Origin: Dyella telluris
Lineage (GTDB): Bacteria > Pseudomonadota > Gammaproteobacteria > Xanthomonadales > Rhodanobacteraceae
Length of the DNA: 64,000 bases
Assembly (NCBI RefSeq): GCF_014297575.1
Contig: NZ_CP060412.1
Span: 2,418,001-2,482,000 of the forward strand
Reading direction: 5' to 3'
Shown: positions 13,219 to 29,244 of the stretch, piece by piece
Numbering within the stretch: the first letter of the stretch is position 1
Layout: each line of letters starts with the position of its first letter
Translations under genes and position numbers: made by a program
The notes under the pieces: generated by a model
Database searches by the model: none
Told to the model about the DNA's origin: nothing
Seen by the model: only the letters and a program-made list of their open reading frames with translations

Positions 13219-13234
13219 GTGAAAACGTTTACGC
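13219..13234. promoter_or_regulatory. LacI-type operator in front of lacI-1
   Basis: GTGAAAACGTTTACGC carries the AAACGTTT core of LacI/CRE-like operators, 39 bases before the regulator's ATG. The core is the same as at 17668-17681, 14911-14924 and 18839-18850; 27617-27632 has the related core ATCGTT. Confidence 0.7.
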
Positions 13235-13273
13235 TCGTTTGAAATAAGAATTTTCTTACGGCGCGGTGAGGGA

Positions 13274-14275
13274 ATGAAGAAGGCGACCATCAAGGACGTG
13301 GCTCGGGTGGCGCAGGTGTCAGTCGCGTCGGTATCCCGTGCCCTCAACAGGCAAGGTGGCGTGACCGCTGAGACGGTCGAACGCATCCGCGCGGCCGCCC
13401 GCCAGCTGCGCTACATCCCCGACAACGCCGCCCGCAGCCTGATCACCCGCCGCACGCATACCGTCGGGGCCCTGCTGCCCGACCTGTATGGCGAATTCTT
13501 CTCCGAGCTGATCCGCGGCATCGATCTGGCGGCTCGCGCCCGTGGACTGCAGCTGCTGGTATCGAGCTCGCACGACGGCCTGGAAGATGCCTCCGCCGCC
13601 ATGCGCGCCATGCTCGGTCGCGTGGACGGCATGTTGATCCTCTCGCCCTGGGTCGACCAGGCGTTTCTCGAGGCCAACCTGCCCGGCGACCTGCCCACGG
13701 TGCTGATGAACAGCCCGGTCGAAGGCGGCGAGCACGACGTGATCAATATCGACAATCGCGGCGGCGCCCATGCCATGACGGAGCATCTGCTGCGCAAGGC
13801 CGGCCACCCGACCGTGACGTTCATTGCCGGTCCCGCCGGCAACTACGACTCCGTGCAGCGCGAACTGGGTTATCGCCAGGCCATGGCGGAGTTTGCGCCG
13901 AAGGCCGCGGTGGATGTGGTGGCCGGCAGCTTCACCGAGGAGTCGGGCTATCACGCCGGTCGCGAACTGCTGGCGCGCAAGCAACGTCCGCGCGCCGTGT
14001 TTGCCGCCAACGACATGATGGCGGTGGGTTGCCTTTACGCCTTCAAGGAAGCGGGCCTGCAAGTGCCCCAAGACATCGCACTTGCCGGCTTCGACGATAT
14101 CCCGATCGCGCGTTACCTGACGCCGTCGCTCAGCACGGTAAGCGTACACATTGCCGAACTGGGCCGTAACGCGCTCGAACGACTGGCCGTGCAACTGGAT
14201 GGGCACGAACGGTCGCACACCACGGACACGCTTGGTTGCGCGGTCGTGATCCGGCACACCTGCGGCGCCAGTTAA
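13274..14275 (+). CDS. LacI-family regulator 1 of the glucan locus
   Basis: 333 aa. The N-terminal LacI helix-turn-helix (TIKDVARVAQVSVASVSRALNRQGGVTAETVERI) is followed by the hinge (LRYIPDNAARSL) and a periplasmic-binding-protein-like sugar domain (about residues 60-330) with FAANDMMAVGCLYAFKEAGLQVPQDIALAGFDDIPIARY. Closely similar throughout to the regulator at 17734. It precedes a TonB receptor by 75 bases and is probably cotranscribed with it. An operator-like palindrome at 13219-13234 suggests autoregulation. The inducer is probably a gluco-oligosaccharide or glucose, from the neighbouring GH144 and GH1 genes (inference). Confidence 0.93.
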   Translation: MKKATIKDVARVAQVSVASVSRALNRQGGVTAETVERIRAAARQLRYIPDNAARSLITRRTHTVGALLPDLYGEFFSELIRGIDLAARARGLQLLVSSSHDGLEDASAAMRAMLGRVDGMLILSPWVDQAFLEANLPGDLPTVLMNSPVEGGEHDVINIDNRGGAHAMTEHLLRKAGHPTVTFIAGPAGNYDSVQRELGYRQAMAEFAPKAAVDVVAGSFTEESGYHAGRELLARKQRPRAVFAANDMMAVGCLYAFKEAGLQVPQDIALAGFDDIPIARYLTPSLSTVSVHIAELGRNALERLAVQLDGHERSHTTDTLGCAVVIRHTCGAS

Positions 14276-14350
14276 GAGCGTCGTCTAGACCAATAAACCA
14301 AACCAGGGCGCAAGCCCGTTCGATTTCAGATCGACTTTGGAGGGGAGTCA

Positions 14351-17300
14351 ATGAACCTGTTGCACATGAAGAAGAAGCTGCTGGCCAGCCTGATCACCGG
14401 CACGGTCATCGCCACCGCTGCCGTGCCCACCGTGGCATGGTCGCAGACGGCCAACGCCACGTTGCGCGGCAAGGCGCCGGCGAACGCGGAAGTCACCGCG
14501 AAAAACGTCGCCACCGGTGCGGTGCGCCGCTCCAACGCCGACGCCCAGGGCAGCTATGCGCTGGTGGGCCTGCCGCCGGGCACCTATCAGGTGGACGCAG
14601 GCGCGGGCACCGAACGCACCGTGACGCTCACGGTGGCATCCACCGCGTCGCTTGACCTCACCGCCGCTGCCCCCGAAGCGGCCGCCACTGCCAACGCCAA
14701 GAACCTCGGCGGTGTCTCCGTGTCGGCAACCACCCTGCAGGAAGTGAAGACGCCGGAGGTGGGCGCCACCATTTCGCTGCGCCAGATCGACACGATTCCC
14801 CAGGTTTCGCGCAACTTCCTCGAGTTCGCCGACACCGTCCCGGGCATGGTCTTCACGGTAGATCCGTCGGGCCACACGTCCTTGCGTGGCGGTGCTATGA
14901 ACGATAGTTCTGTAAACGTTTACATCGACGGCGTGGGCCAGAAGAGCTACGTGGTCGGCGGCGGCGTGGCCGGTCAGAACAACAGCCAGGGCAACCCGTT
15001 CCCGCAGCTCGCCATCGGCGAGTACAAGGTGATCACCTCCAACTACAAGGCGGAGTACGACCAGCTCTCCAGCGCGGCGGTGACGGCGCAGACCAAGTCG
15101 GGCACCAATGAATTCCACGGTGAGGCGTACTACCGCTACACCGACGATTCGTTCCGCGCGAAGACGCCGTCGGAAGACGCGCAGGGCACCAAGTCGTCGT
15201 CGGAAGAGAAGGAATACGGCTTTGCCGTGGGCGGTCCGATCATCCAGGACAAGATGCACTTCTTCATGGCGTACGAAGCCAAGCGCTTCGACACGCCGGT
15301 GACCGTGGCGCCGAGCGCCGATGGCGCACCGGGCGTGCCGTACCTGCCGACCAGCGTTTCCTCGCAGATGGGCCCGGCCAACCTGCCGTTCCAGGAGGAC
15401 CTGTACTTCGGCAAGATCGACTGGGAACCCACCGATCGCGACCGCTTCGAAGTGAGCGCGCAGATCCGCAATGAAACACAGCTCGATGGCATCGGCGCCG
15501 ACCAGCAGAACACCACCTCGGCCGCCTACAACATCAAGAACAACAGCGAGCGCTACGTGGCGCGCTGGCAGCACAGCGGCCAGGCGTACTTCAATGAGCT
15601 GATCGTCGGTTATGAAGACGCCAAGTACTCACCCACCGCAGTGAACATCGGCAACGGCTACGTGTACACGTGGGAGCGCCCGATCGACGACCCGACCATC
15701 ATCGCCACCGGCGCGGCCAGCCCGCAGTCCACGCAGAACAAGAGCCAGCGTGGTCCGTCCATCCAGGACGACTTCACCTTCAATGACCTGGAATGGCACG
15801 GCGACCACGTCGTGAAGATGGGCATGAAGCTGAAGCTGGTGACGCTGGAAGCGTCCGACGCGTCGGACATCAACCCGCAGTACTACTACAACGTCACCAC
15901 CGACGGCACCGCCGCCACGCCGTACAAGGCTTACTTCACCAAGCCGGTGAACGGCCTGGGCCTGACCCCGTCCGTGTCCACCAAGAGCCGCCAGTTCGGC
16001 ACCTATATCCAGGACGACTGGGCGGTGAACGACAAGCTCACGTTGAACCTGGGCCTGCGTTGGGACTACGAGCGCACGCCGTCGTACACCGACTTCGTGA
16101 CGCCGGCCAACGTGGTGGCCGCGCTTTACTCGCAGGACACCAACGCCGGCGCACCGGCAGGCCAGACCTATGCCGAAACGCTGGCCAAGGGCGGCATCAA
16201 CATCAACGACTACATCAGCACCGGCAGCAACCGCTCCGCCTACAAGGGTGAGTGGCAGCCGCGCCTGGGCTTCTCGTACGACTGGTTCGGCGACGAGCAG
16301 CACGTGATCCACGGTGGCGCCGGTCGCGCCTACGACCGCGACCTGTACGACTACCTGCAGCTGGAAACCACCAAGTCGGCGCTGCCGCAGTACACGATCT
16401 TCTTCCAGGATCCGGCCACCGGCACCTGCCATCGCGAAAGCACGCCTTGCTACCAGTGGGATCCGAACCTGCTCAGCGGTCTGCCGGCCCTGCAGGCACT
16501 GCTCGGTGCGAGCAGCAACGCGGGCACCGAGGTGGATCTACTCAACAACAAGCTGAAGGCGCCGTACTCCGATCAGTTCAGCCTGGGCATGTCCAACCAG
16601 ATCGGTGACTGGCAGACCGACGCCACCGTGGTGCGCGTGCTGAGCTATGACGGCTTTGCCTTCACGCTGGGCAACCGCTACCCCAACGGCGCGTTCTTCC
16701 AGCACTCCAACGACAACCAGCAGAACAGCCAGCCGTGGGGTAACGGCATCCCGGGCTTCGGCGCGCTGATCCTGGGTGACAACGGCATCTCCACGCGCAG
16801 CACGCAGGTGCTGCTGTCGGCCTCCAAGCCGTATGACAAGGCGTCGGGCTGGGGCGCGACGTTCGCGTACACGTTCACCCATGCCAAGCAGAACCGCGAC
16901 ATCAACGAGCACTACTCGTTCGACTACGGCACCATCCAGGAATACCCGTTCATCACCTCGAACTCGGCGGCCAAGCATCGCTTCGTGGCCACCGGCAACA
17001 TGGACGGCCCGTGGGGCACGGTGCTGTCGGCCAAGCTCACCCTGGCCACGCCGCTGCCGTACAACGGTGCGGCCTGCTACGCCGGCGTGACGCTGCCGGA
17101 CGGCTCCAGCTGCGTGCCGACCTCGGCCACGCCGGAAGGCTCGAAGTTCCTCGTGGGCGGCAAGATCTGGGGTTACCGCGACATCGACCTGCAGGCCACC
17201 AAGGACTTCGACATCGGGCATGGCATGACGCTGTACGGTCGCTTCGACGTGCTCAACGTCTTCAACTGGCACAACTACTCCGACTACGTCGCGACGTTCG

Positions 17301-17392
17301 TGCCGGGCAACACCATGGTGAGCTACAACCAGACCGGCAACATCACCTTCGTGCCGCGCACCATCAAGTTCGAGCTCGGCCTGAAGTTCTGA
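14351..17392 (+). CDS. TonB-dependent receptor, Oar type (1)
   Basis: 1013-aa outer-membrane active transporter. It has a signal peptide (to about residue 32), then a carboxypeptidase-regulatory-like beta-sandwich (about 33-100; YALVGLPPGTYQVDAG), the plug (about 110-250; VSVSATTLQEVK, FLEFADTVPGMVF, YIDGVGQ) and a 22-strand-type barrel ending FELGLKF with the expected C-terminal Phe. AGGGGAG lies just before ATG 14351. It is closely related to the receptor at 18817 and sits directly behind a LacI gene, a common pairing for carbohydrate uptake in xanthomonads. The substrate is inferred to be a beta-glucan from the downstream enzymes. A perfect 14-bp LacI-type palindrome lies inside codons 187-192. 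Confidence 0.92.
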   Translation: MNLLHMKKKLLASLITGTVIATAAVPTVAWSQTANATLRGKAPANAEVTAKNVATGAVRRSNADAQGSYALVGLPPGTYQVDAGAGTERTVTLTVASTASLDLTAAAPEAAATANAKNLGGVSVSATTLQEVKTPEVGATISLRQIDTIPQVSRNFLEFADTVPGMVFTVDPSGHTSLRGGAMNDSSVNVYIDGVGQKSYVVGGGVAGQNNSQGNPFPQLAIGEYKVITSNYKAEYDQLSSAAVTAQTKSGTNEFHGEAYYRYTDDSFRAKTPSEDAQGTKSSSEEKEYGFAVGGPIIQDKMHFFMAYEAKRFDTPVTVAPSADGAPGVPYLPTSVSSQMGPANLPFQEDLYFGKIDWEPTDRDRFEVSAQIRNETQLDGIGADQQNTTSAAYNIKNNSERYVARWQHSGQAYFNELIVGYEDAKYSPTAVNIGNGYVYTWERPIDDPTIIATGAASPQSTQNKSQRGPSIQDDFTFNDLEWHGDHVVKMGMKLKLVTLEASDASDINPQYYYNVTTDGTAATPYKAYFTKPVNGLGLTPSVSTKSRQFGTYIQDDWAVNDKLTLNLGLRWDYERTPSYTDFVTPANVVAALYSQDTNAGAPAGQTYAETLAKGGININDYISTGSNRSAYKGEWQPRLGFSYDWFGDEQHVIHGGAGRAYDRDLYDYLQLETTKSALPQYTIFFQDPATGTCHRESTPCYQWDPNLLSGLPALQALLGASSNAGTEVDLLNNKLKAPYSDQFSLGMSNQIGDWQTDATVVRVLSYDGFAFTLGNRYPNGAFFQHSNDNQQNSQPWGNGIPGFGALILGDNGISTRSTQVLLSASKPYDKASGWGATFAYTFTHAKQNRDINEHYSFDYGTIQEYPFITSNSAAKHRFVATGNMDGPWGTVLSAKLTLATPLPYNGAACYAGVTLPDGSSCVPTSATPEGSKFLVGGKIWGYRDIDLQATKDFDIGHGMTLYGRFDVLNVFNWHNYSDYVATFVPGNTMVSYNQTGNITFVPRTIKFELGLKF
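14911..14924. promoter_or_regulatory. Intragenic LacI-type palindrome in receptor 1
   Basis: TGTAAACGTTTACA is a perfect 14-bp palindrome matching the operators of this locus. It is encoded by TCT GTA AAC GTT TAC ATC (residues 187-192), using GTA and GTT where GC-rich alternatives are normal here. The paralogous receptor encodes the same peptide region without the palindrome. It may be an auxiliary operator, or chance. Confidence 0.5.
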
Positions 17393-17438
17393 GGTCAGTC
17401 CACCGGTTCTGTCCCTCCCCGGGGACCGGTGGTCTTTC

Positions 17439-17474
17439 GCGGCGGGCGCCCCCACAGCGCCCGCCGCCTTTCTC
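17439..17474 (+). terminator. Terminator after TonB receptor 1
   Basis: An 11-bp GC-only stem (17439-17449 with 17457-17467) and 7-base loop are followed by CTTTCTC. A second hairpin, CCACCGGT/ACCGGTGG at 17400-17407/17425-17432, precedes it. The T-tract is short, so efficiency is uncertain. Confidence 0.6.
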
Positions 17475-17667
17475 GGGGCCCGTGAACTGCGACGGTTCCT
17501 TCACTTGGCTATCGGGTTCCTTACTGGCTGATGTGATCGATGTTGCGCTGCCGTACCCCGGCATGGGCCTGCGGTGGGCCGGCACCAAGCCTTCTCGCAA
17601 GTTCTCCCGGCAGGGAGTTTTGCGTTGCAGCGAAAAAAGCAGTCAATTCTGCCTTTACAAGTTTTGA

Positions 17668-17681
17668 TGAAAACGTTTACG
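17668..17681. promoter_or_regulatory. LacI-type operator in front of lacI-2
   Basis: TGAAAACGTTTACG lies 52 bases before the GTG start of the second LacI gene and matches 14 of 14 bases of the site before lacI-1 (13220-13233). A direct repeat of an operator across paralogous regulators suggests overlapping or cross-regulation. Confidence 0.72.
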
Positions 17682-17733
17682 TTCCGCCGCAATGCGCGGA
17701 GGAACGCCTCTGTGCCGCGCCTTGGGAGACGAC

Positions 17734-18786
17734 GTGAGCACCAAGAAGGCCACCATCAAAGATGTGGCGCGCGAGGCGAAGGTCTCGATCGCGTCGGTCT
17801 CGCGTGTGCTCAACGGCCTGGGCGGTGTCACCGCGGAAACGCAGGACGCCGTGCGCAAGGCGGTGGCCCGCTTGCACTATGTACCCGACAGCGCCGCGCG
17901 CAGCCTGATCACCGGCCGCACCCACACCATCGGCGCGGTGCTGCCGGATCTCTACGGTGAGTTCTTCTCGGAGCTGATCCGCGGCATCGACCTGGCGGCG
18001 CGCGCGCGCGGCCTGCATCTGCTGGTTTCCAGCTCCCACGATGGCGTGGAAGACGCTGCCGCTGCGGTGCGCACCATGCGTGGCCGCGTGGACGGCATGA
18101 TCATCCTTTCGCAGTTCGTCGATGGCGACTTCCTCGAGCAGAACATGCCGGCCGACTTGCCGGCGGTGCTGCTGGACAGCCCGGTCGATGACCCGCGCTA
18201 TCCGTCGATCAACCTCGACAACGTGGCGGGCGCACAGGCGATGGTGAAGCACCTGCTGGACATCGGCCATGCATCGGTGGCGTTCATCAATGGCCCGGCC
18301 GGTAACTTCGACGCGCAGGAACGCGAAAAGGGTTACCGCGCCGCCATGCGCCAGTTCGCACCCAAGGTGCCGCTCAACATCGTGGCTGGCGAATTCACCG
18401 AAGAATCGGGCTATCGCGCCGGCCGCGAACTGCTTGCGCAGCCGGTGCGTCCGCGTGCCGTGTTCGCCGCCAACGACATGATGGCGGTGGGTTGCCTCTA
18501 CGCCTTCAAGGAAGCCGGCATCCGCGTGCCGGAAGACATCGCCCTGGCCGGCTTCGACGACATTCTCATCGCACGGTACGTCACGCCTTCGCTCAGTACC
18601 GTGAGCGTCAGCATCGCGGACCTGGGCAGGCGTGCTCTGCTCCTGCTCACCGAGCTCATGGAAGGCAAGGGCCCCATTGGCGGCCCGCATACCCGCACGC
18701 TCCCTTGCGACGTAGTCGCTCGCGAATCGTGTGGCGCCAAAGGCACCAACAACGTCGCATCAAAACATCCTCCGGCGCTCGTCTGA
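17734..18786 (+). CDS. LacI-family regulator 2 of the glucan locus
   Basis: 350 aa, starting at GTG 17734 (VSTKKATIKDVAREAKVS) with GGGAG 6 bases upstream; an in-frame ATG at 17692 has no ribosome site. The HTH, hinge and sugar-binding domain are as in regulator 1. Long identical blocks (GEFFSELIRGIDLAARARGL, FAANDMMAVGCLYAFKEAG) mark the two as paralogues from a tandem duplication of a lacI-receptor unit. It sits 30 bases before the second receptor. The effector pocket differs in places (MIILSQFVDGDFLEQNMP here against MLILSPWVDQAFLEANLP in regulator 1), so the two may sense different oligosaccharides (inference). Confidence 0.93.
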   Translation: MSTKKATIKDVAREAKVSIASVSRVLNGLGGVTAETQDAVRKAVARLHYVPDSAARSLITGRTHTIGAVLPDLYGEFFSELIRGIDLAARARGLHLLVSSSHDGVEDAAAAVRTMRGRVDGMIILSQFVDGDFLEQNMPADLPAVLLDSPVDDPRYPSINLDNVAGAQAMVKHLLDIGHASVAFINGPAGNFDAQEREKGYRAAMRQFAPKVPLNIVAGEFTEESGYRAGRELLAQPVRPRAVFAANDMMAVGCLYAFKEAGIRVPEDIALAGFDDILIARYVTPSLSTVSVSIADLGRRALLLLTELMEGKGPIGGPHTRTLPCDVVARESCGAKGTNNVASKHPPALV

Positions 18787-18816
18787 GCGGCGGCCTTTGT
18801 GGGAGGGGAGAACCCG

Positions 18817-21800
18817 ATGATCATTCAAACCCAGAAACGTAAACGTTTACTTGCTGCCGCCATCGGCTTTGCCATGGCCTCTGCCATGCCCGCCATCAGC
18901 CTGGCGCAGTCCTCCGACGCGACCATTCGCGGCCAGGGTCCGGTCGACACGGATGTGGTCGCCAAGAACGCGGCGACGGGCGCCACGCGGCGCACGCATA
19001 CCGACAAGGGCGGCAGCTACGCCCTGGTGGGCCTGCCGCCGGGCACCTACCAGGTGAGCGCCGGCCCGGGCACGGAGCGCACGGTCACCGTGACGGTGGC
19101 ATCGGTCTTCACGCTCAACCTGAGCGCGCAGCAGGCCGCCGCCGCGGCACCCGCCGCAGCAGCCAACGCAAAGGACCTCGGCCCGATTTCCGTATCGGCC
19201 ACCACCCTGCAGGAAGTGAAGACGTCCGAAGTGGGCACGCTGGTGTCGCTGCGCCAGATCGATACCACGCCCGCCGCATCGCGCAACTTCCTCGAGTTCG
19301 CCGACACCGTGCCGGGCATGGTGTTCACGCGTGACTCCAACGGCAACACCAGCCTGCGTTCCGGTGCCCAGGCAAGTTCGAACATCAACGTCTACATCGA
19401 CGGCGTGGGCCAGAAGAACTACGTGATGCCCGGCGGCGTCACCGGCCAGAACAACAGCCAGGGCAACCCGTTCCCGCAGCTCGCCATTGCCGAATACAAG
19501 GTCATCACGTCCAACTACAAGGCTGAGTACGACCAGTTGTCGAGCGCGGCGGTGACGGCAGAAACCAAGTCGGGCACCAACGATTTCCATGGTGATGTGT
19601 TCGGCAGCTACACGAACACCAGGATGCGTGCGAGGACGCCCGCAGAGGATGCGTCCGGCGAAAAGGCCCAGTCGCACGAAAAGGATTATGGCTTCGACTT
19701 CGGTGGCCCCATCCTCAAGGATCAGGCGCACTTCTACATCGCGTACGAAGGCAAGGAGTTCAACAGCCCGATCACCGTGACACCGCAGGGCAACTCGACC
19801 TTGTGGCCGGAGTTGCCGGCGAGCGCACAGAAAGAGCTCGGCCCGACCAACCTGCCGTTCAAGGAGAACAACTGGTTCGGCAAGGTGGACTGGGAGCCGA
19901 CCGACCGTGACCGTATCGAGGTCAGTGGCAAGTATCGCGACGAAAACGCGATCAGTGGTGTCGGAAGCAACAGCACAGAGAACGCCGCGCTGAACACGCG
20001 CAACACCGAAAAGCGTTTCGATATCCGTTGGGATCACAGTACCGACAGCTGGTTCAACCGCCTGCAGGCCACTTATGAGGATGCGGTCTATAACCCCAGC
20101 CCCATCGTGCTGGGCTACGGCGCGTCCTATACCGACTACAAGAACCAGAACTCCACGCTGCTGGTGGACGGCGCTTCGCCGTTGTCATTCCAGAACAAGG
20201 GCCAGAAGGGCCCGGCGATCTCCGACGACTTCACCTTGAATGACGTTCAGTGGCACGGCGACCACGTGATCAAGATGGGCGTGAAGTTCAAGTCCGTGAA
20301 GCTGACCGCGCAGGATGCCGGCGACACCAACGCGCTGTACACCTATGCGGTGGGTCCGGACGGCACCGAGTCGATTCCGTACAAGGTGCAGTTTGGTAAT
20401 CCGATTCCGGGGCAGAACCCGGTCGCGACCAGTCGCGACAAGCAGTTCGGTACCTACATCCAGGATGACTGGCAGGTGGACGACCACTGGACCTTCAACC
20501 TCGGCGTGCGCTGGGACTACGAAGAAACGCCCTCGTACCTCAACTACGTGACGCCAGCCGGCGTGGTCGCCGCGATCAATTCGCAGGACCCGAATGCGCC
20601 CGCAGGGCAGACCTATGCGCAGACGCTGGCCAAGGGCGGCGTGAATATCAACGACTACATCAGCACAGGCAACAATCGCCACGCACAGAAGAACGAGATC
20701 CAGCCGCGCATCGGTTTCTCCAACGATCTGTTCGGTGACGAAGCGCATGTGATCTTCGGCGGCTGGGGTCGTTCGTACGACCGCAACCTGTATGAGTCGC
20801 TGCAGGTCGAGCAGACCAAGTCGGTGCTGTCGCAGCCCACGCTACTGTTCAACACCCCGCTGTCGCCGTGTGTGCCCAGCGCCACCTGCCTCACCTGGAA
20901 CCCGGCTTATCTGGGCATTCCTGCCCTGCAGGCGCTGGTTGCCAACAGCACGGCGGGCAAGGAGGTGGACCTGATTAACAACAACCTGAAGTCGCCGTAT
21001 TCAGATCAGCTAAGCATTGGCATGCGCAACCAGGTCGGCGAATGGAACACGAGCGTCGCCTTCGTGAACATCAAGAGCTTCAACGGCATCGTGTACACCC
21101 TGGGCAACCGCTATCCGAACGGTGCCTTCTGGCAGGGCGGCAGCCAGCCATGGAGCTACGGCATACCGGGCTACGGCAGCCTGATCATCGGCAACAACGG
21201 CCTGAAGACCAAGACCAACCAATTCCTGATTTCTGCCGAGAAGCCTTACACGGCCGACTCGCACTGGAGTGCATCGTTCGCGTACACCTACACGAATGCC
21301 GTGCAGAACAACGACAACCAGGATCCGACCGACCAGTACGCGTTCGACTTCTCGACCATTCACGCGTACCCGTTCACCGGTGCGGCCGTCGCCAAACATC
21401 GACTGGTATCCACCGGCTCGCTCGATGGCCCGTGGGGCTTTGTATTCGGCGCCAAGCTGACGCTCGCCACGCCGATTCCGGATCTTGGACTCGCCTGTTA
21501 TCAGACGCCGACCAACCAGGAAGTGGGCAGCATGAACGGCGGCGGTTGCCAGTCGGTATCGATTCATCCGCCCGGCACCGGCAAGTTCCTTGTTGGCGGC
21601 AAGGTGTTCGGTTACCGCGACTTCGACATGCAGGCCACCAAGAACTTCAAGGTCTGGGGCAATCTCAACGGTTACGTGCGTATCGACCTTCTCAACGCAT
21701 TCAACTGGAACAATTACAAGGAATATGTCGAAAACTGGAACGCGCTCAGTACTGGCCAGCGCGCCGTGATCTACAACTCGGTGGGTGACATCACCGGTTA

Positions 21801-21840
21801 CCCCCGCACTCTCAAGGTCACCGCAGGCATCAACTTCTAA
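18817..21840 (+). CDS. TonB-dependent receptor, Oar type (2)
   Basis: 1007-aa paralogue of the receptor at 14351, with the same order: signal peptide (MIIQTQKRKRLLAAAIGFAM...), regulatory-like beta-sandwich (YALVGLPPGTYQVSAG), plug with VSVSATTLQEVK and FLEFADTVPGMVF, and barrel ending TAGINF. ATG 18817 has GGGAGGGGAG at 18801-18810; an in-frame ATG at 18799 overlaps that site. Blocks such as GQNNSQGNPFPQLAI and AEYDQLSSAAVTAETKSGTN are shared, while the barrel loops diverge, which fits two receptors for related ligands. An operator-like palindrome overlaps codons 8-12. Confidence 0.92.
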   Translation: MIIQTQKRKRLLAAAIGFAMASAMPAISLAQSSDATIRGQGPVDTDVVAKNAATGATRRTHTDKGGSYALVGLPPGTYQVSAGPGTERTVTVTVASVFTLNLSAQQAAAAAPAAAANAKDLGPISVSATTLQEVKTSEVGTLVSLRQIDTTPAASRNFLEFADTVPGMVFTRDSNGNTSLRSGAQASSNINVYIDGVGQKNYVMPGGVTGQNNSQGNPFPQLAIAEYKVITSNYKAEYDQLSSAAVTAETKSGTNDFHGDVFGSYTNTRMRARTPAEDASGEKAQSHEKDYGFDFGGPILKDQAHFYIAYEGKEFNSPITVTPQGNSTLWPELPASAQKELGPTNLPFKENNWFGKVDWEPTDRDRIEVSGKYRDENAISGVGSNSTENAALNTRNTEKRFDIRWDHSTDSWFNRLQATYEDAVYNPSPIVLGYGASYTDYKNQNSTLLVDGASPLSFQNKGQKGPAISDDFTLNDVQWHGDHVIKMGVKFKSVKLTAQDAGDTNALYTYAVGPDGTESIPYKVQFGNPIPGQNPVATSRDKQFGTYIQDDWQVDDHWTFNLGVRWDYEETPSYLNYVTPAGVVAAINSQDPNAPAGQTYAQTLAKGGVNINDYISTGNNRHAQKNEIQPRIGFSNDLFGDEAHVIFGGWGRSYDRNLYESLQVEQTKSVLSQPTLLFNTPLSPCVPSATCLTWNPAYLGIPALQALVANSTAGKEVDLINNNLKSPYSDQLSIGMRNQVGEWNTSVAFVNIKSFNGIVYTLGNRYPNGAFWQGGSQPWSYGIPGYGSLIIGNNGLKTKTNQFLISAEKPYTADSHWSASFAYTYTNAVQNNDNQDPTDQYAFDFSTIHAYPFTGAAVAKHRLVSTGSLDGPWGFVFGAKLTLATPIPDLGLACYQTPTNQEVGSMNGGGCQSVSIHPPGTGKFLVGGKVFGYRDFDMQATKNFKVWGNLNGYVRIDLLNAFNWNNYKEYVENWNALSTGQRAVIYNSVGDITGYPRTLKVTAGINF
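18839..18850. promoter_or_regulatory. LacI-type palindrome at the start of receptor 2
   Basis: GTAAACGTTTAC, a perfect 12-bp palindrome, spans codons 8-12 (CGT AAA CGT TTA CTT) of the receptor, 22 bases after the ATG. TTA is a rare leucine codon in DNA of this composition, which suggests that the DNA sequence rather than the protein is conserved. A roadblock or repression site just inside the gene is plausible. Confidence 0.6.
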
Positions 21841-21874
21841 GTACACCCCGGCCATCTGGACGATGGCTTTTCAC

Positions 21875-21902
21875 GAGGCCCGCGTGTTGCGGGCCTCATC
21901 TT
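21875..21902 (+). terminator. Hairpin after TonB receptor 2
   Basis: GAGGCCCGC/GCGGGCCTC (21875-21883/21889-21897), 9 bp with a 5-base loop, followed by ATCTT. It may be a weak terminator or an mRNA 3' end attenuating expression of the downstream GH144-ABC genes. Confidence 0.5.
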
Positions 21903-21960
21903 TGAGAGCACGATCCGGCGCTGCGTGGCAGCACGGGTCAGGCCCTGAGGAAACCGTGAC

Positions 21961-23421
21961 ATGAGCAAGCGAACCATCCGTGCCGCACTGGTCGGCGCAC
22001 TGACCCTCGCGGTGGGCATGGCAACGGCGGCACCGGCCGCCTCAGCCGGCGACACGGCGACCCTGAAGTACAACGCCTTGCCGGCCGGGCAGCGCGCCGC
22101 CATCGACGAGCTGGAGCAGCGCACGTTCCAGTGGTTCTGGGACAGCGCCGACCCGAAGACGGGGCTGGTGCCCGATCACTGGCCGGCGGAATCGTTCGCC
22201 AGCATCGCCTCGGTAGGCTTCGCGCTGACCGCCTATGGCGTGGGCGTGGAGCGCGGCTACGTGACGCGCGATCAGGCGGTGGAACGCACCCTGGCTACGT
22301 TGAAGTTCTTCAACGAGGCCACGCAGAACGACAGCGAAGACGACGCCACCGGCAATCACGGTTTCTTCTACCACTTCCTCGACATGAAGACCGGCAAGCG
22401 CTACTCGCGCTGGGTGGAACTGTCGAGCGTGGATACCACGCTGCTGCTGGGTGGCGTGCTGTTCTCGCAGACCTATTACGACGGCCACAACGCGAAGGAA
22501 AAGCAGATCCGCGAGCTGGCCGATGCCATCTATCGCCGCGTCGACTGGACCTGGATGCAGCCCAAGGCGCCCCTGATCAGCATGGGCTGGACGCCGGGCG
22601 GCAAATTCATCCCCGCCAACTGGAAGGGCTACGACGAAGGCATGCTGGTCTACGTGCTGGCGATGGGCTCGCCCACGCACCCGGTGAGCGACGATGCGTG
22701 GCAGGCCTGGGCCAGCACCTATCCCAAGCAATGGGGTGAATTCCAGGGGCGAACCTTCCTCAACTTCGCGCCGCTGTTCGGCCACCAGTACAGCCAGACC
22801 TGGGTTGATTTCCGCGGCATCCGCGATGCCTGGAGCCGTGATCACAACACCGACTACTTCCAGAACAGCCGCGAAGCCACCTATGCGCAGCGCGCCTATG
22901 CCATCGCCAATCCCAACCACTGGGAGGGCTATGGCGAGAACATCTGGGGCCTGACCGCGTGCAATGGCCCCGGCGATGCGGTGGTGAAGCGCGACGATGG
23001 CAGCACGCGCGCCTTCTATGGCTACACCGCGCGTGGTGCCGGTCTGGACTACATCTCCGATGACGGTACCATCGCTCCTACGGCGGCAGGTGGCTCCATT
23101 GCCTTTGCACCGGAGATCGCGGTGCCTGCGCTGCTGGAAATGAAGAACAAGTATGGTGACGCCATCTATGGCAAATACGGCTTCGTGGATGCCTTCAATC
23201 CGAGCTACGGCACCGGCATGGCACCCAAGGAAGGACGCATCGTGCCGGGCATGGGCTGGGCCGACGACAAGCAGATCGGTATCGATCAGGGGCCTATCGT
23301 CTTGATGATCGAGAACTGGCGCAGCGGCTTTGTCTGGAACGTGATGCGCAGGAATCCGTATATCCGCAAGGGCCTGGAACGCGCCGGCTTTACCGGCGGC
23401 TGGCTGGAGCACACGAAGTAA
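21961..23421 (+). CDS. GH144-type glycoside hydrolase (Glycoamylase domain; endo-beta-1,2-glucanase family)
   Basis: 486 aa with a signal peptide (hydrophobic stretch LVGALTLAVGMATAAPAASA, cleavage near residue 28), so it acts outside the cytoplasm. The rest is one (alpha/alpha)-barrel-type domain beginning DELEQRTFQWFWDSADPKTGLVPDHW, with IASVGFALTAYGVGVERGYV, ELSSVDTTLLLGGVLFSQTYY, and the C-terminal PGMGWADDKQIGIDQGPIVLMIENWRSGF. This pattern is that of Pfam Glycoamylase proteins, which include the characterised GH144 endo-beta-1,2-glucanases. It is the first gene of a tight run with the ABC importer (3-base gap). Specificity for beta-1,2-glucan is inferred from the family and not proven here. 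Confidence 0.85.
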   Translation: MSKRTIRAALVGALTLAVGMATAAPAASAGDTATLKYNALPAGQRAAIDELEQRTFQWFWDSADPKTGLVPDHWPAESFASIASVGFALTAYGVGVERGYVTRDQAVERTLATLKFFNEATQNDSEDDATGNHGFFYHFLDMKTGKRYSRWVELSSVDTTLLLGGVLFSQTYYDGHNAKEKQIRELADAIYRRVDWTWMQPKAPLISMGWTPGGKFIPANWKGYDEGMLVYVLAMGSPTHPVSDDAWQAWASTYPKQWGEFQGRTFLNFAPLFGHQYSQTWVDFRGIRDAWSRDHNTDYFQNSREATYAQRAYAIANPNHWEGYGENIWGLTACNGPGDAVVKRDDGSTRAFYGYTARGAGLDYISDDGTIAPTAAGGSIAFAPEIAVPALLEMKNKYGDAIYGKYGFVDAFNPSYGTGMAPKEGRIVPGMGWADDKQIGIDQGPIVLMIENWRSGFVWNVMRRNPYIRKGLERAGFTGGWLEHTK

Positions 23422-23424
23422 CCC

Positions 23425-24723
23425 ATGCGCTGGCTGATACGCCCACCCGTTGCAACGGCATGCCGCCTGCTGGCGGCTGCCGCGCTGTTGCTGGCGGGTT
23501 GTTCCTCGTCGCAGGACCCGCAGACGCTCACTTTCTGGACCTTCGGCCGCGAAGGCGAAGCCGTGGTGAAACTGCTGCCGGCGTTCGAGCGCGAACATCC
23601 CGGCATTCACGTGAACGTGCAGCAGCTACCGCTGTCCGCGGCACACCAGAAGCTGCTCACCGCGTTCGCCGGCAACTCCACGCCGGACCTGTGCCAGCTG
23701 GGCAACACCTGGTTGCCCGAGTTCGTGGCGATCAAGGCGCTGGAGCCGCTGCAGCAGCGCGTGGCGGCATCCACGGCGGTGCAGCCGGATGACTACTTCG
23801 CGCACATCTGGTCCACCAACCTGATCGACGGCACGCTGTATGGCGTGCCCTGGTACGTGGATACGCGCCTGCTTTTCTACCGGCGCGATCTGCTCAAGGC
23901 AGCAGGTTTCGACGCCCCGCCGCGTGACTGGGCAGAGTGGCGCCGGATGCTGGCCGCGCTCAGCCATCCCGATCGCGGTACCTACGGCATCCTGCTGCCC
24001 ACCAACGAGTACGAGCAGCTGATGTCGCTGGCGCTGCAGCAATCTGAGCCGATGCTGCGCGATGGCGGGCGCTATGGCAATTTCCGCAGCCCCGGCTTCA
24101 AGCGCGCGCTCAGCTTCTATGTCGATACCTTCCGCCTGCGCCAGGCGCCGGCGATCACCGCCGTGGAAGCGGGTAATCCGTGGGAAGAGTTTGGCCGCGG
24201 CGTGTATGCCTTCTATTTCTCCGGTCCGTGGAACATCGGCGAGTTTCGCCAGCGCCTGCCGGCCAACCGCGAGAACGAATGGGCCACGGCACCGCTGCCC
24301 GGTCCTGACGGCGGCGTGGCCGGTGCGGCGGGTGGCGCGAGCCTGGTGGTGTTCCGTCGCTCCACGCACAAGGACCAGGCCTGGGCGCTGATCGAATACC
24401 TGTCCCGTCCCGACGTGCAGCAGCGTTTCTACGACCTGCTCGGCGACATGCCCGCACGACGCAGTGCATGGGATGGCGGCAGCCTGCGCACCGATCCGAA
24501 GGTGCAGGCGTTCCGCCAGCAACTGGAAAACGTCAAGGCGACGCCGCCCGTGCCGGAGTGGGAACAGATCGCCAACGAGATGCAGCTGGTGGCCGCGCAG
24601 GCGGTGGCCGGCGAACTGAGTGTGGATGAGGCCGCAGCGGAGATGGATCGCCGCGCGGACCGCATTCTGGAGAAGCGTCGCTGGGTGCTCGATCACTCGC
24701 GCGCCACGGAGGCAGCACCATGA
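23425..24723 (+). CDS. ABC sugar importer, substrate-binding lipoprotein
   Basis: 432 aa. The signal peptide ends in the lipobox LLAGC (Cys at about residue 26), so the protein is anchored in the periplasm. The mature part is a family 1 (MalE/UgpB-like) solute-binding protein: LTFWTFGREGEAVVKLLPAFEREHPGI at the start, then GTLYGVPWYVDTRLLFYRRDLLKAAGF, and WALIEYLSRPDVQQRFYDLLGDMPARRSAW near the end. It starts 3 bases after GH144 and its stop overlaps the first permease. The ligand is presumably the oligosaccharide released by the GH144 enzyme. Confidence 0.93.
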   Translation: MRWLIRPPVATACRLLAAAALLLAGCSSSQDPQTLTFWTFGREGEAVVKLLPAFEREHPGIHVNVQQLPLSAAHQKLLTAFAGNSTPDLCQLGNTWLPEFVAIKALEPLQQRVAASTAVQPDDYFAHIWSTNLIDGTLYGVPWYVDTRLLFYRRDLLKAAGFDAPPRDWAEWRRMLAALSHPDRGTYGILLPTNEYEQLMSLALQQSEPMLRDGGRYGNFRSPGFKRALSFYVDTFRLRQAPAITAVEAGNPWEEFGRGVYAFYFSGPWNIGEFRQRLPANRENEWATAPLPGPDGGVAGAAGGASLVVFRRSTHKDQAWALIEYLSRPDVQQRFYDLLGDMPARRSAWDGGSLRTDPKVQAFRQQLENVKATPPVPEWEQIANEMQLVAAQAVAGELSVDEAAAEMDRRADRILEKRRWVLDHSRATEAAP

Positions 24724-25598
24724 AGCGACCATCCGCCGCGTGGTGGTTCCTCGCACCCGCCATGCTCGTGCTCGGCGTGTTTTTCCTCTTGCCGGTGGTG
24801 GCGGCGCTGGCGCTCAGCCTCACCGACTATGACCTCTACGCGCTGGCCGATATCCGCCACCTGCGCTTCGTCGCGCTGCACAACTACTGGGACCTGCTGC
24901 ACCAGCCGGCATTCTGGTCGGCACTCGGGCATACGCTGACCTTCGTGGTGGTGGGCGTGCCGTTGTCCATCATGGTGTCGCTGGGCATGGCGCTGCTGCT
25001 CAACTCGCCGCTGGTGCGCTGCAAGAGCTTCTTCCGCACCGCACTGTTCGCGCCGGTGGTGACCACCGTGGTGGCCGTGGCGGTGGTGTGGCGCTACATC
25101 CTCAACACCAAGTACGGCTGGCTCAATTACGTGCTGGGCCTGGTAGGCATCCATCCGGTGGACTGGCTGGGCGATCCGCACTGGGCGATGCCATCGATCA
25201 TCCTGTTCGCCGTGTGGAAGAACTTCGGCTACAACATGATCATCCTGCTGGCGGGCCTGCAGGCCATTCCGGCCGATCTCTACGAGGCGGCACGCATCGA
25301 TGGCGCCTCGGCGCCGCAGCAGTTCCGCCACATCACCCTGCCCATGCTGGGTCCCACCCTGCTGATGGTGGCCATCCTCACCGTATCGGGTTATTTCCAG
25401 CTGTTTGCCGAGCCCTATGTGATGACCGAAGGCGGCCCGCTGCAGAGCACCACCAGCGTGCTCTACCTGATGTACAACGAAGGCTTCAAATGGTGGAACT
25501 TCGGCATGGCTTCGGCCGTGGCGTTCCTGTTGTTCGTGATCATGTTCGCCGTCACTGCGCTCATGCTGCGGCTGGGCCGGCGCGGAGCCACGGCATGA
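24720..25598 (+). CDS. ABC sugar importer permease, MalF/UgpA type
   Basis: 292-aa inner-membrane protein with six predicted transmembrane segments; the first is WWFLAPAMLVLGVFFLLPVVAAL. It has the EAA loop that contacts the ATPase: LYEAARIDGASAPQQFRHITLPML. The ATG overlaps the stop of the binding-protein gene and its own stop overlaps the next permease, so the three are translationally coupled. Confidence 0.95.
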   Translation: MKRPSAAWWFLAPAMLVLGVFFLLPVVAALALSLTDYDLYALADIRHLRFVALHNYWDLLHQPAFWSALGHTLTFVVVGVPLSIMVSLGMALLLNSPLVRCKSFFRTALFAPVVTTVVAVAVVWRYILNTKYGWLNYVLGLVGIHPVDWLGDPHWAMPSIILFAVWKNFGYNMIILLAGLQAIPADLYEAARIDGASAPQQFRHITLPMLGPTLLMVAILTVSGYFQLFAEPYVMTEGGPLQSTTSVLYLMYNEGFKWWNFGMASAVAFLLFVIMFAVTALMLRLGRRGATA

Positions 25599-26416
25599 GC
25601 CCCCGCATTGCCAAGGCGCTCGTTCACGGCCTGCTGATCGGTGCCGTGCTGGTGGCCGTGTTTCCGCTGCTGTGGATGCTGTCGGTGTCTTTCATGCACC
25701 CCGGCGAAGCCGGCAGCCTGCCGCCGCCGCTGCTGCCGTCGCATCCCACGTGGAACAACTACCAGGCGTTGTTCGTGCGCGCGGGCGTGGGTCGCTACCT
25801 GTTCAACAGCCTGGCGATTTCCACCGCCATCACCGTGCTGTCGCTGGCCTTCAACCTGATGGCGGGCTATGCCTTCGCCAAGCTGCGCTTCGCCGGCCGC
25901 GAGCGCCTGTTCCGCGGGCTGCTCGGCATGCTGGTGATCCCCGCACAGGTGGCCATGCTGCCGCTGTTCCTCACGCTCAAGTACATGGGCCTGGTGAACA
26001 GCTATGCCGCCGTGGTGCTGCCGGCAGCGGCCACGGCGTTCGGCATCTTCCTGGTGCGCCAGTACGCGCGCGGCATTCCCGATGAACTGCTGGAAGCGGC
26101 GCGCATCGATGGCGCCAGCGAGTGGCGCATCTTCGGCCAGATCGTTTTGCCGCTGCTCAAGCCCATCATGGTGACGCTCGCCATCTTCACCTTCCTCACC
26201 GCATGGAACGACTTCATGTGGCCACTGATCGCACTGACCGGCCAGGAGCATTACACGCTGCCGCTCGGCCTGGCTTCGCTCGCACGCGAGCACGCGCAAG
26301 ACAGCGAGCTGATGATGGCCGGCTCGGTGGTGACGGTGATTCCCGTGCTGGCGCTGTTTCTCGCCATGCAGCGCTACTACATCGAGGGGTTGTTGCTGGG
26401 TAGCGTGAAGGGTTGA
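25595..26416 (+). CDS. ABC sugar importer permease, MalG/UgpE type
   Basis: 273-aa second permease of the importer, starting at ATG 25595 inside the previous stop (ATGA). It has six predicted transmembrane helices, and the EAA motif is LLEAARIDGASEWRIFGQIVLPLLKP. The frame stays open far upstream, but that part is antiframe to malF and not coding. It converges with the ATPase gene, leaving 8 bases between stops. Confidence 0.95.
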   Translation: MSPRIAKALVHGLLIGAVLVAVFPLLWMLSVSFMHPGEAGSLPPPLLPSHPTWNNYQALFVRAGVGRYLFNSLAISTAITVLSLAFNLMAGYAFAKLRFAGRERLFRGLLGMLVIPAQVAMLPLFLTLKYMGLVNSYAAVVLPAAATAFGIFLVRQYARGIPDELLEAARIDGASEWRIFGQIVLPLLKPIMVTLAIFTFLTAWNDFMWPLIALTGQEHYTLPLGLASLAREHAQDSELMMAGSVVTVIPVLALFLAMQRYYIEGLLLGSVKG

Positions 26417-26424
26417 TGACCTGT

Positions 26425-27516
26425 TCAGGCCAGTCGCGTACCGGTAGCGGGATCGAACATATGCAGACGATCAAGCGCGAGCTCGAAATGCATGAGCTCG
26501 CCTGCCTTCGGTAGCGAACGTGGCGGCACCCGAGACACCAGCGTCTGCTCACCGTGTCGCAGGTTTAGAAAGATTTCGTTGCCCACGGGTTCGGTCACTT
26601 CGAGCGTGGCGTTGAGTGTCGCGTTCGCTTCGCCGGTGGGGCGCAGGTCTTCGGGGCGCACACCGAGCACGATCTCGCGGTCGATCCAGGGCAACAGTTC
26701 AGGTGACTGGCTTTCCAGCGCGCCAAGTCGCACGTCACCTTGCGCCGTCTCCAGGTACCAGCCATCGCCATGGCGCAGCGGGCCACGCAGCAGGTTCATG
26801 CCCGGCGAGCCGAGGAAGCCTGCCACGAACAGGTTGGCCGGCTTTTCGTACAGCGCCATCGGCGTGTCGATCTGCTGGATCTGTCCGCCGTTGAGCACCA
26901 CGATGCGCTGGCCCAGCGTCATGGCTTCGACCTGGTCGTGGGTCACGTAGATCATGGTGGCGCCGAGCTGGCGGTGCAGTCGTGCGATCTCCACGCGCAT
27001 CGACAGGCGCAGCTTGGCGTCAAGGTTGGAGAGGGGTTCGTCGAGCAGGAACACCTTGGGTTCGCGCACCAGGGCCCGGCCCAGGGCGACGCGCTGGCGC
27101 TGGCCGCCGGAGAGGGCGGCGGGCAGGGAATCCAGGCGATGCTCCAGCTCCAGCTGCTTTGCCGCTTCGGCAATGCGCTGGTCGATCTCGGCCTTCGACT
27201 TGCCGCGCAGGCGTAGCCCGAAGGCGAGGTTTTCCGCCACGGTCATGTGCGGGTAGAGCGCGTAGTTCTGGAACACCATGGCGATGTCGCGATCTTTCGG
27301 CGACACCTCGTTCACCACGCGGTCGCCGATGCTCAGCGTGCCGGAGGAGATGGTTTCCAGGCCGGCGATCATGCGCAGCAGGGTGGTCTTGCCGCAGCCG
27401 GACGGGCCGACCAGTACCAGCAGTTCGCCATCGGCGATCTCAAACGTGGCCTCCGCCACGCCGACGTGCCCGTTGGGATAGACCTTGCTGACGCGATCCA
27501 GACTTACCCTTGCCAT
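26425..27516 (-). CDS. ABC sugar importer ATPase, MalK/UgpC/MsmX type
   Basis: 363 aa. Walker A GPSGCGKTT (about residues 38-46), Q-loop VFQNYALYPHMTVAEN, signature LSGGQRQRVALGRAL, Walker B VFLLDEPLSNLD and switch His (YVTHDQ) are all intact. A C-terminal MalK-type OB regulatory domain follows (about 240-363; VLGVRPEDLRP). The start is ATG 27516 with GAGAGG upstream; an in-frame ATG at 27588 lies in the promoter region. It is on the strand opposite its permeases and divergent from the GH1 gene, sharing a 146-bp spacer with a LacI-type operator. Such ATPases often serve several importers. Confidence 0.94.
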   Translation of the reverse strand: MARVSLDRVSKVYPNGHVGVAEATFEIADGELLVLVGPSGCGKTTLLRMIAGLETISSGTLSIGDRVVNEVSPKDRDIAMVFQNYALYPHMTVAENLAFGLRLRGKSKAEIDQRIAEAAKQLELEHRLDSLPAALSGGQRQRVALGRALVREPKVFLLDEPLSNLDAKLRLSMRVEIARLHRQLGATMIYVTHDQVEAMTLGQRIVVLNGGQIQQIDTPMALYEKPANLFVAGFLGSPGMNLLRGPLRHGDGWYLETAQGDVRLGALESQSPELLPWIDREIVLGVRPEDLRPTGEANATLNATLEVTEPVGNEIFLNLRHGEQTLVSRVPPRSLPKAGELMHFELALDRLHMFDPATGTRLA

Positions 27517-27616
27517 CAACGCCTCTCGCTGTGTTGCGCCGATGGCTGACCGGGCCACCGTAACGGAATGTGGACGCCCCCGCTGCACATCCGGGTCGCG
27601 CTACGCTATTCTCAGC

Positions 27617-27632
27617 ATGTAATCGTTTACAT
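27617..27632. promoter_or_regulatory. LacI-type operator between ATPase and GH1 genes
   Basis: ATGTAATCGTTTACAT has 6-bp arms (ATGTAA/TTACAT) round TCGT. It resembles the TGTAAACGTTTACA palindromes at the LacI genes, 31 bases upstream of the GH1 ATG and about 100 bases from the divergent ATPase start. It links these genes to the same regulators. Confidence 0.7.
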
Positions 27633-27662
27633 CAAGCTGCGTCAAGCCATAGGGACCCCGTA

Positions 27663-29015
27663 ATGACCCAGAGCCTTCGCTTTCCCCCGGACTTTCACTG
27701 GGGCGCCGCGACCTCGGCCTACCAGATCGAAGGGTCTCCCCTGGCCGATGGCGCGGGCCCCAGCATCTGGGAGCGCTTTGCCCATACGCCGGGCATGATG
27801 GCCAACAACGACAACGGCGACATTGCCTGCGATCACTACCGTCGCTACAAGGACGATGTGCAGCTCATGCGCGCGCTCGGCCTGCAGGGCTATCGCTTCA
27901 GCATTGCCTGGTCGCGCGTGTTGCCCGAAGGCACCGGCCGCATCAACCAGAAGGGCGTGGATTTCTATTCGCGCCTGGTCGACGAGTTGCTGGAGAACGG
28001 CATCGCGCCGAACGCCACGCTGTTCCACTGGGATCTTCCGGCCGCGCTGGACGATCGCGGCGGCTGGCTCAACCGCGACAGTGCGCACTGGTTCGCCGAA
28101 TACGCCGGTGTGATGTTCAAGGCGCTGGATGACCGCGTGAAGCTGTGGTCCACGCTCAACGAGCCGTGGGTGGTCACCGATGGCGGTTACCTGCATGGCA
28201 CGCTCGCGCCGGGCCATCGCAGCAAGTACGAAGCGCCCATTGCCACCCACAACCTGATGCGCGCCAGCGGCGCCGGCATCCAGGCCTATCGCGCGCTGGG
28301 CAAGCACCAGATCGGCGTGGTGTTCAACATCGAGCCGAAGTACCCGGCGAGCAACAGCCCGGAAGACATCGCCGCGACCAAGCGCGCGCATGCCTACATG
28401 AACGAGCAGTTCGCCGATGCGGCGCTGCTGGGCAGCTATCCGCCGGAGCTGAAGGAAATCTTCGGACCGGCGTGGCCGGATTTTCCGGAAGACGATTTCA
28501 AGCTGACCAAGCAGCCGGTGGATTTCGTCGGCCTCAATTACTACACGCGCGCTGTGGTGAAGAACAATCCGGACGCCTATCCGCTGAAGGCCTCGCCGGT
28601 GCGCCAGCCCAACGTCACCCACACGGAGACGGGCTGGGAAGTGTTCGAGCAGGCCTTTACCGACATGCTCACCTGGTTCAAGGGGCGCTACGGCGACATC
28701 CCGCTCTATGTCACCGAGAACGGTTCGGCGTTCTATGACCCGCCGGTGGCCGAGGGCGACGTGGTGGAAGATCCGCTGCGCACCAGCTATCTGCGCAAGC
28801 ACCTCAAGGCCATGCACCATGCCATCGAGCTGGGCGTGAACCTCAAGGGTTATTACGCCTGGTCGCTGCTGGACAACCTGGAATGGTCGCTGGGCTTCGC
28901 CAAGCGCTTTGGCCTGTATCACGTGGATTTCGCTACGCAGAAGCGCACGCCCAAGGCGACGGCGAAGCTGTACGCGCAGGTGATCGAGAGCAACGGCGCG
29001 GTGCTGGACGATTGA
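27663..29015 (+). CDS. GH1 beta-glucosidase
   Basis: 450 aa, the normal length of a bacterial GH1 enzyme, with no signal peptide, hence cytoplasmic. N-terminal family signature FHWGAATSAYQIEGS; catalytic acid/base Glu in STLNEPWV (about 165); nucleophile Glu in LYVTENGSAF (about 355); sugar-site residues in WSLLDNLEWSLGFAKRFGLYHV. The start is ATG 27663 with AGGGA upstream; the longer open frame begins inside the ATPase promoter region. It would hydrolyse imported beta-gluco-oligosaccharides to glucose, completing the pathway started by the exported GH144 enzyme. Confidence 0.95.
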   Translation: MTQSLRFPPDFHWGAATSAYQIEGSPLADGAGPSIWERFAHTPGMMANNDNGDIACDHYRRYKDDVQLMRALGLQGYRFSIAWSRVLPEGTGRINQKGVDFYSRLVDELLENGIAPNATLFHWDLPAALDDRGGWLNRDSAHWFAEYAGVMFKALDDRVKLWSTLNEPWVVTDGGYLHGTLAPGHRSKYEAPIATHNLMRASGAGIQAYRALGKHQIGVVFNIEPKYPASNSPEDIAATKRAHAYMNEQFADAALLGSYPPELKEIFGPAWPDFPEDDFKLTKQPVDFVGLNYYTRAVVKNNPDAYPLKASPVRQPNVTHTETGWEVFEQAFTDMLTWFKGRYGDIPLYVTENGSAFYDPPVAEGDVVEDPLRTSYLRKHLKAMHHAIELGVNLKGYYAWSLLDNLEWSLGFAKRFGLYHVDFATQKRTPKATAKLYAQVIESNGAVLDD

Positions 29016-29068
29016 TTGAGGGCGGTGGAGGTTTGCGTGCTCTAAACGCACCCTCAACGTACCCGTCC

Positions 29069-29172
29069 CCTCACCGTCATCCCGGCGAAGGCCGGGATCC
29101 AGCGACTTTGCTCTGGACCTCGGAAAAAACGAAAGTCACTGGATCCCGGCCTTCGCCGGGATGACGGTGAGG
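29069..29172. repeat. Paired-hairpin REP-like element (perfect 34-bp arms)
   Basis: CCTCACCGTCATCCCGGCG... at 29069-29102 is the exact reverse complement of 29139-29172, and each arm folds on its own (ATCCCGGC-GAAG-GCCGGGAT). Same family as 1964-2052. It fills the gap between the GH1 and thrC stop codons and may act as a bidirectional transcript end. Confidence 0.85.
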
Positions 29173-29244
29173 GTTGGTTGACGGTGAGGGTTGAACGACC
29201 GCGACGAGAGCGTCCTAGCTGAAGCCTTGGTCGGCGATTCGCCG

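Follow-up and report, generated by a model that had tools for sequence, protein, structure and literature searches.

A LacI-regulated locus of Dyella telluris predicted to scavenge beta-1,2-glucans made by other bacteria

What sugar is served by the locus at positions 13220-29015 of a 64,000-nucleotide stretch of the Dyella telluris genome (the whole stretch is here called the window; 65.5% G+C, from a genome of one contig and 4.99 Mb)? A first-pass annotation had proposed two LacI regulators, two Oar-type TonB-dependent receptors (TBDRs), an enzyme of the GH144 type, an ATP-binding cassette (ABC) sugar importer and a GH1 beta-glucosidase, and profile searches recovered all of these genes as full open frames of the stated families. 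Their order is lacI1, Oar-type receptor, lacI2, second Oar-type receptor, PF10091 enzyme, solute-binding protein (SBP), malF, malG, malK on the minus strand and GH1. The reading we favor, with a probability of roughly 0.86, is a LacI-controlled locus that scavenges the beta-1,2-glucans of other bacteria. The Oar-type receptors would carry the glucan (linear, cyclic or of the osmoregulated periplasmic type) across the outer membrane, the exported GH144 enzyme would cut it endolytically to sophoro-oligosaccharides, the lipoprotein SBP with the MalF/MalG/MalK-type importer would bring these into the cytoplasm, and the GH1 enzyme would trim them to glucose. As long as no oligosaccharide inducer is present, both LacI proteins would act on one shared palindrome, found at lacI1, at lacI2 and at the divergent promoter of malK and GH1, to keep the locus repressed. 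The substrate in Dyella, the receptor ligands, the linkage preference of GH1, the repression with its inducer and the cell locations are what we infer; the route from outer-membrane import to glucose, as first suggested, is backed by the GH144 evidence and the kinship of the SBP to Lin1841 of Listeria innocua.

The product of the gene at 21961 matched PF10091 with 281.5 bits (cut-off 27) and shares 57% identity, the fold and the catalytic residues with XcSGL (PDB 8XUL), with which it forms a clade of 100/100 support, CpSGL standing well apart (33% identity). Its fold is the (alpha/alpha)6 barrel of GH144 structures, the comparison that the first-pass annotation had asked for. The Glu/Phe/Tyr set that defines the SGL clan (PMC12102758) corresponds to E239, F286 and Y367 in XcSGL and to E226, F273 and Y355 here, invariant in 26/26 rows, so that the general acid position, E226, is kept. 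The candidate general base, E142 in CpSGL, is D158, the position being Asp in 25/25 rows on the XcSGL side and Glu in 5/5 on the CpSGL side; the family's catalytic residues, on which the earlier call had been made to depend, are therefore present. XcSGL itself (XCC2207, Xanthomonas campestris pv. campestris) is reported to act, among the polysaccharides tested, on beta-1,2-glucan only, 12 other substrates being negative. An initial placement of XCC2207 in GH193 was dropped because its authors assign it to GH144, GH193 being the SkSGL group. Sequence, tree, fold and catalytic residues thus support a GH144 enzyme, for which beta-1,2-glucan hydrolysis is predicted; its export is judged by eye from the N-terminus.

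The importer is complete, as had been claimed, with SBP, MalF, MalG and MalK types all present, and its ATPase is of the UgpC/MalK type (NF008653, 473.2 bits, cut-off 432), as would suit a maltose/trehalose system lying merely beside a glucanase. Such a system is also what the name of the best solved relative of the SBP implies, Xac-MalE of X. citri (3UOR, 54.8% identity), but we consider it very improbable here. The specificity of 3UOR is listed as 'Unknown' in PMC7676653, and the SBP directly after the GH144 gene in a Xanthomonas cissicola locus (L098, 11513-12697) is 99.7% identical to the 3UOR sequence over 395 residues, which makes the maltose/trehalose label doubtful. Moreover, the second solved relative, Lin1841, scored 220 bits (34.6% identity over 353 residues) against about 120 bits reached by solved matches named maltose-type binders, and Lin1841 is the reported binding subunit for Sop3-5 (PMC12369401), which relates our SBP to a proven sophoro-oligosaccharide binder. 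Given the L098 neighbor, the listing of 3UOR and the kinship to Lin1841, Xac-MalE would most likely be a beta-1,2-gluco-oligosaccharide binder.

GH1 enzymes are often broad in specificity. The one encoded here matched TIGR03356 with 573.8 bits (cut-off 478.5) and has the motifs NEP (E167) and ENG (E353), which we take to be the catalytic Glu pair; with no signal peptide seen by eye, it would be cytoplasmic, in line with the original assignment. The signature of beta-1,2-glucan-associated GH1 enzymes of the SGR_2426 type is Trp291/Gln229 at subsite +1. With a GH1 enzyme of broad preference, the main substrate might be a beta-glucoside of another kind (of the laminari- or cello-type, or a plant sophoroside), the GH144 activity being incidental. 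We hold this to be about as improbable as the maltose system, in view of the exclusive activity of XcSGL, the Sop3-5 binding of Lin1841 and the lack of a second polysaccharide-degrading family in profile matches to the locus genes. A further possibility is recycling, in which the glucan consumed, whether osmoregulated periplasmic or cyclic, would be of the cell's own making; synthases of cyclic glucans contain domains of the GH94 and PF10091 types. X. campestris makes a cyclised beta-1,2-glucan (PMC11842490), and 7/61 relatives carry OpgG, so that turnover of self-glucan is conceivable there. In this genome, profile searches found no PF04349 (OpgG/D) and no PF17167 (GH94; the same profile matched in 2/14 control genomes), and the PF10091 gene is the only one, which together favor scavenging of foreign glucan. 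PF04349 occurs in 1/20 genomes of the genus, and TonB receptors under LacI control would indicate an external food, so that recycling appears marginally the least probable of the three alternatives.

The features of the locus, on which the account of regulation and conservation draws, are as follows:

13220-13233, no strand: LacI-type operator O1, TGAAAACGTTTACG, upstream of lacI1 (palindrome search and conservation)
13274-14275, plus: LacI-family regulator 1, lineage 1 (PF00356/PF13377; tree)
14351-17392, plus: Oar-type TonB-dependent receptor 1 (TBDR1), lineage 1, alternative start 14366 (PF25183 194 bits, PF13620 34.5 bits; tree)
14911-14924, no strand: perfect 14-bp palindrome TGTAAACGTTTACA inside TBDR1 (palindrome search)
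17392-17440, plus: terminator-like hairpin after TBDR1 (RNA fold -21.5 kcal/mol, without shuffle control)
17668-17681, no strand: LacI-type operator O2, 14-mer identical to O1, upstream of lacI2 (palindrome search)
17734-18786, plus: LacI-family regulator 2, lineage 2, frame open from 17692, likelier start 17734 (profile; tree)
18817-21840, plus: Oar-type TonB-dependent receptor 2 (TBDR2), lineage 2, frame open from 18799, likelier start 18817 (PF25183 163 bits; tree)
18838-18851, no strand: palindromic site, codons 8-12 of TBDR2 (palindrome search)
21868-21912, plus: attenuator- or terminator-like hairpin between TBDR2 and the GH144 gene (RNA fold -21.3 kcal/mol, without shuffle control)
21961-23421, plus: GH144 beta-1,2-glucanase homologue of XcSGL type, Sec-like N-terminus by eye (profile, tree, fold, residues E226, F273, Y355, D158)
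23425-24723, plus: SBP of the sugar ABC importer, Xac-MalE/Lin1841 type, lipobox-like N-terminus by eye (PF01547; solved relatives)
24720-25598, plus: ABC permease, MalF/UgpA type (PF00528)
25595-26416, plus: ABC permease, MalG/UgpE type, likelier start 25595 (PF00528)
26425-27516, minus: ABC ATPase, UgpC/MalK type, ATG at 27516 (NF008653)
27618-27631, no strand: LacI-type operator O3, TGTAATCGTTTACA, in the malK/GH1 divergent intergenic region (palindrome search and conservation)
27663-29015, plus: GH1 beta-glucosidase, likelier start 27663, no signal peptide by eye (TIGR03356; NEP E167, ENG E353)

The gene set of one continuous locus therefore stands, with small corrections to the strand of malK, which points towards malG and away from GH1, and to the starts of GH1, LacI2, TBDR2 and malG. 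Downstream of GH1 lie a long inverted repeat (29050-29191, 60-nt arms, 87% complementary), presumably a repetitive extragenic or terminator element, and genes for a threonine synthase, a GHMP kinase and a homoserine dehydrogenase, apparently unrelated.

The palindrome said to link the locus proved real. Searching the window on both strands with TGAAAACGTTTACG at up to 3 mismatches gave 11 rows against 1.55 expected (largest of 100 shuffles, 6), at 8 distinct places, of which the locus accounts for 5. Across the whole genome, TGTAAACGTTTACA at up to 2 mismatches occurred at 7 places, compared with 1 for the backwards pattern, and 5 of these (13220, 14911, 17668, 18838 and 27618) are in the locus: one ahead of each lacI gene, one between the divergent malK and GH1 genes and one within each receptor gene. 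The other operator-like sites are at 2288714, between two genes that resemble glycosidase genes by eye, and at 2379924. Conservation was scored in 98 unique loci with a GH144 gene of at least 50% identity, 73 of which remained once 24 without a lacI match and 1 with too little upstream DNA were set aside. In 65/73 loci a site lay no more than 250 bp ahead of the lacI match, and 27/31 divergent malK/GH1 intervals contained one, against means of 0.02 and 0, respectively, for 100 composition-preserving shuffles of the palindrome; a palindrome with a central CG is thus kept across relatives upstream of candidate target genes, as in a LacI regulon. Several Xanthomonas and Stenotrophomonas loci have an additional site between the receptor and GH144 genes. 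In Xanthomonas sacchari (L128, 23018-29296), an operator-like site precedes ugpC, which adjoins zwf-glk-pgl-edd, a hint that glucose catabolism may belong to the regulon as well.

The core beside the GH144 gene recurs across Lysobacterales. Loci from named genomes were the best 80 of 558 confirmed, and 62 of them were flanked by 8 kb or more on each side; lacI, receptor, SBP, malF and malG were all present in 46 of these 62 full-length loci. The SBP (E up to 1e-80) was found in 77/117 genomes of the family, and its presence agreed with that of the GH144 orthologue in 25 of the 26 genomes listed in both searches. Two relatives showed other neighbors: in a Rhodanobacter locus the receptor and GH144 genes have a gene of the tryptophan-halogenase family (PF04820, 664 bits; L038, 8277-9899) between them, and a second PF10091 gene, 42% identical, was seen in Dyella genome G002 (L126, 3502-13121) near genes for a GH94 supersandwich protein, a phosphoglucomutase, a transketolase and two enzymes of dehydrogenase type, a group that may form another beta-1,2-glucan locus.

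Several observations, in addition to the OpgG of some relatives, weigh against the scavenging reading. The core was incomplete in 16/62 full-length loci: 13 (acetic-acid bacteria, a Beijerinckia and Spirosoma) had no homologue of the window lacI, receptor, SBP, malF or malG within the stretch, and L060, L077 and L091 missed the lacI and/or receptor match. A single genome, G024, carries the enzyme but lacks the SBP. The operator was missing at lacI in 8/73 loci (L038, L041, L059, L060, L063, L101, L116 and L118) and at malK/GH1 in 4/31 (L036, L040, L043 and L082). Finally, the best solved matches of GH1 were 'beta-glucosidase 15' and another beta-glucosidase, and the sophorose-specific GH1 structure 9U98 was not among the 60 PDB matches listed, its presence in the searched PDB copy being unconfirmed.

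Why does the window hold two regulator-receptor pairs, as had been noticed at the outset? Oar-type receptors combine a carboxypeptidase-regulatory-like N-terminal domain with a large barrel, and both receptors conform, with PF13620 at 34.5 and 32.8 bits (cut-off 32.3) and PF25183 at 194 and 163 bits (profiles used: PF13620 and PF25183/PF00593). In trees of 27 LacI and 30 receptor rows, from which short rows and rows with stops had been dropped, the two pairs fell into separate supported clades, each alongside other Dyella; a recent tandem duplication was rejected in view of these different lineages. In each of 16 other Dyella loci exactly one pair was seen (1.9 to 8.9 kb upstream covered), whose best match is lineage 1 in 4 and lineage 2 in 12, three of the latter (L036, L040 and L043) forming a further receptor branch. 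In an alignment with genome G019, positions 12998 and 17535 of the window enclose about 4.5 kb, against 73 bp in G019. Given this difference and the single pairs elsewhere, a lineage-1 cassette appears to have entered ahead of a lineage-2 locus already in place, a direction we infer. The palindrome inside TBDR1 is kept in the 4/4 other lineage-1 Dyella loci (L035, L114, L133 and L134), and one like the 18838 site in 9/9 other lineage-2 loci, being absent from L036, L040 and L043; both may be intragenic operators.

Related loci often encode a protein of about 1,050 amino acids (L104, 14687-17851, Xanthomonas nasturtii, and homologues), present in 42/59 named loci with GH144 and malG. Its gene lies directly after malG in the loci inspected and upstream in L105, and its N-terminus looks signal-like by eye. 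It was found in none of the 6 Dyella loci long enough among those named loci (L035 is cut), nor was a homologue found in this genome, where an apparent match was rejected since it overlies malG in another frame. The model (predicted local distance difference test, 80) has an N-terminal beta-sandwich, a CBM32-like F5/8C domain and a GH94-like sandwich plus (alpha/alpha)6 part, its likeness to GH94 phosphorylases and other sandwich plus (alpha/alpha)6 enzymes being loose (top match: template-modelling score 0.41/0.52, root-mean-square deviation 9 A, 12% identity). No Pfam or NCBIfam catalytic family exceeded its cut-off, and the modelled protein is a candidate new glycosidase family tied to beta-1,2-glucan use.

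A broader proposal, which we offer tentatively and think more likely wrong than right, is that a LacI-controlled system for feeding on the beta-1,2-glucans of other bacteria, so far undescribed, is common to the Lysobacterales. Regulator and receptor would be swapped in it as one cassette, so that the glucan specificity could change with enzyme and importer left as they are; the window would then hold two cassette types together, and most other named loci would add an exported glycosidase of a new GH94-like-fold family acting on the same glucan.

Beta-1,2-glucans count in symbiosis, infection and osmotic balance, and their consumers are little known. The named genes of the locus open a proteobacterial route to testing, and its operator is a handle for finding more of the regulon. 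The locus also suggests which class of ligand is likely for 3UOR, whose structure was deposited under the label of a maltose-type binding protein, and it provides a natural experiment in the exchange of regulator-receptor cassettes.

How does it compare with known systems? No published description of the Lysobacterales locus turned up in our searches of open-licence PMC articles, and to this extent the claim that no proteobacterial system with this exact set had been described holds; the set is less singular than claimed, because its core recurs across Lysobacterales and a GH144/TonB/ABC scheme has been proposed in PMC8861115. Closest are Xanthomonas loci whose enzymes are 97.9% (L104) and 96.3% (L108) identical to XcSGL, from Xanthomonas other than the X. 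campestris pv. campestris genome, in a syntenic lacI-TBDR-GH144-SBP-malF-malG order. They differ in showing a single pair of LacI and receptor, in having an operator in the gap that separates the receptor gene from the enzyme gene and in encoding the protein of about 1,050 amino acids after malG, with no GH1 or malK match within the stretch covered. The cluster proposed for Ignavibacterium album (PMC8861115) likewise joins GH144, a TonB-dependent transporter and an ABC importer with a Lin1841-like binder, but belongs to another phylum and uses GH94 and a GH35 transglycosylase, whereas the Dyella genome has no GH94 (PF17167, 0) and the locus has GH1, LacI and two Oar-type receptors. Streptomyces griseus SGR_2422-2427 (PMC12369401) resembles it in a Lin1841-like binder, permeases and a GH1 enzyme acting on sophoro-oligosaccharides, and differs in being Gram-positive, with a GH193 endo-enzyme and no outer-membrane receptor. 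Listeria innocua lin1839-1841 (PMC12369401) shares an ABC binding subunit for sophoro-oligosaccharides and an enzyme that splits them, with a GH94 phosphorylase and a GH3 glucosidase in place of GH144 and GH1.
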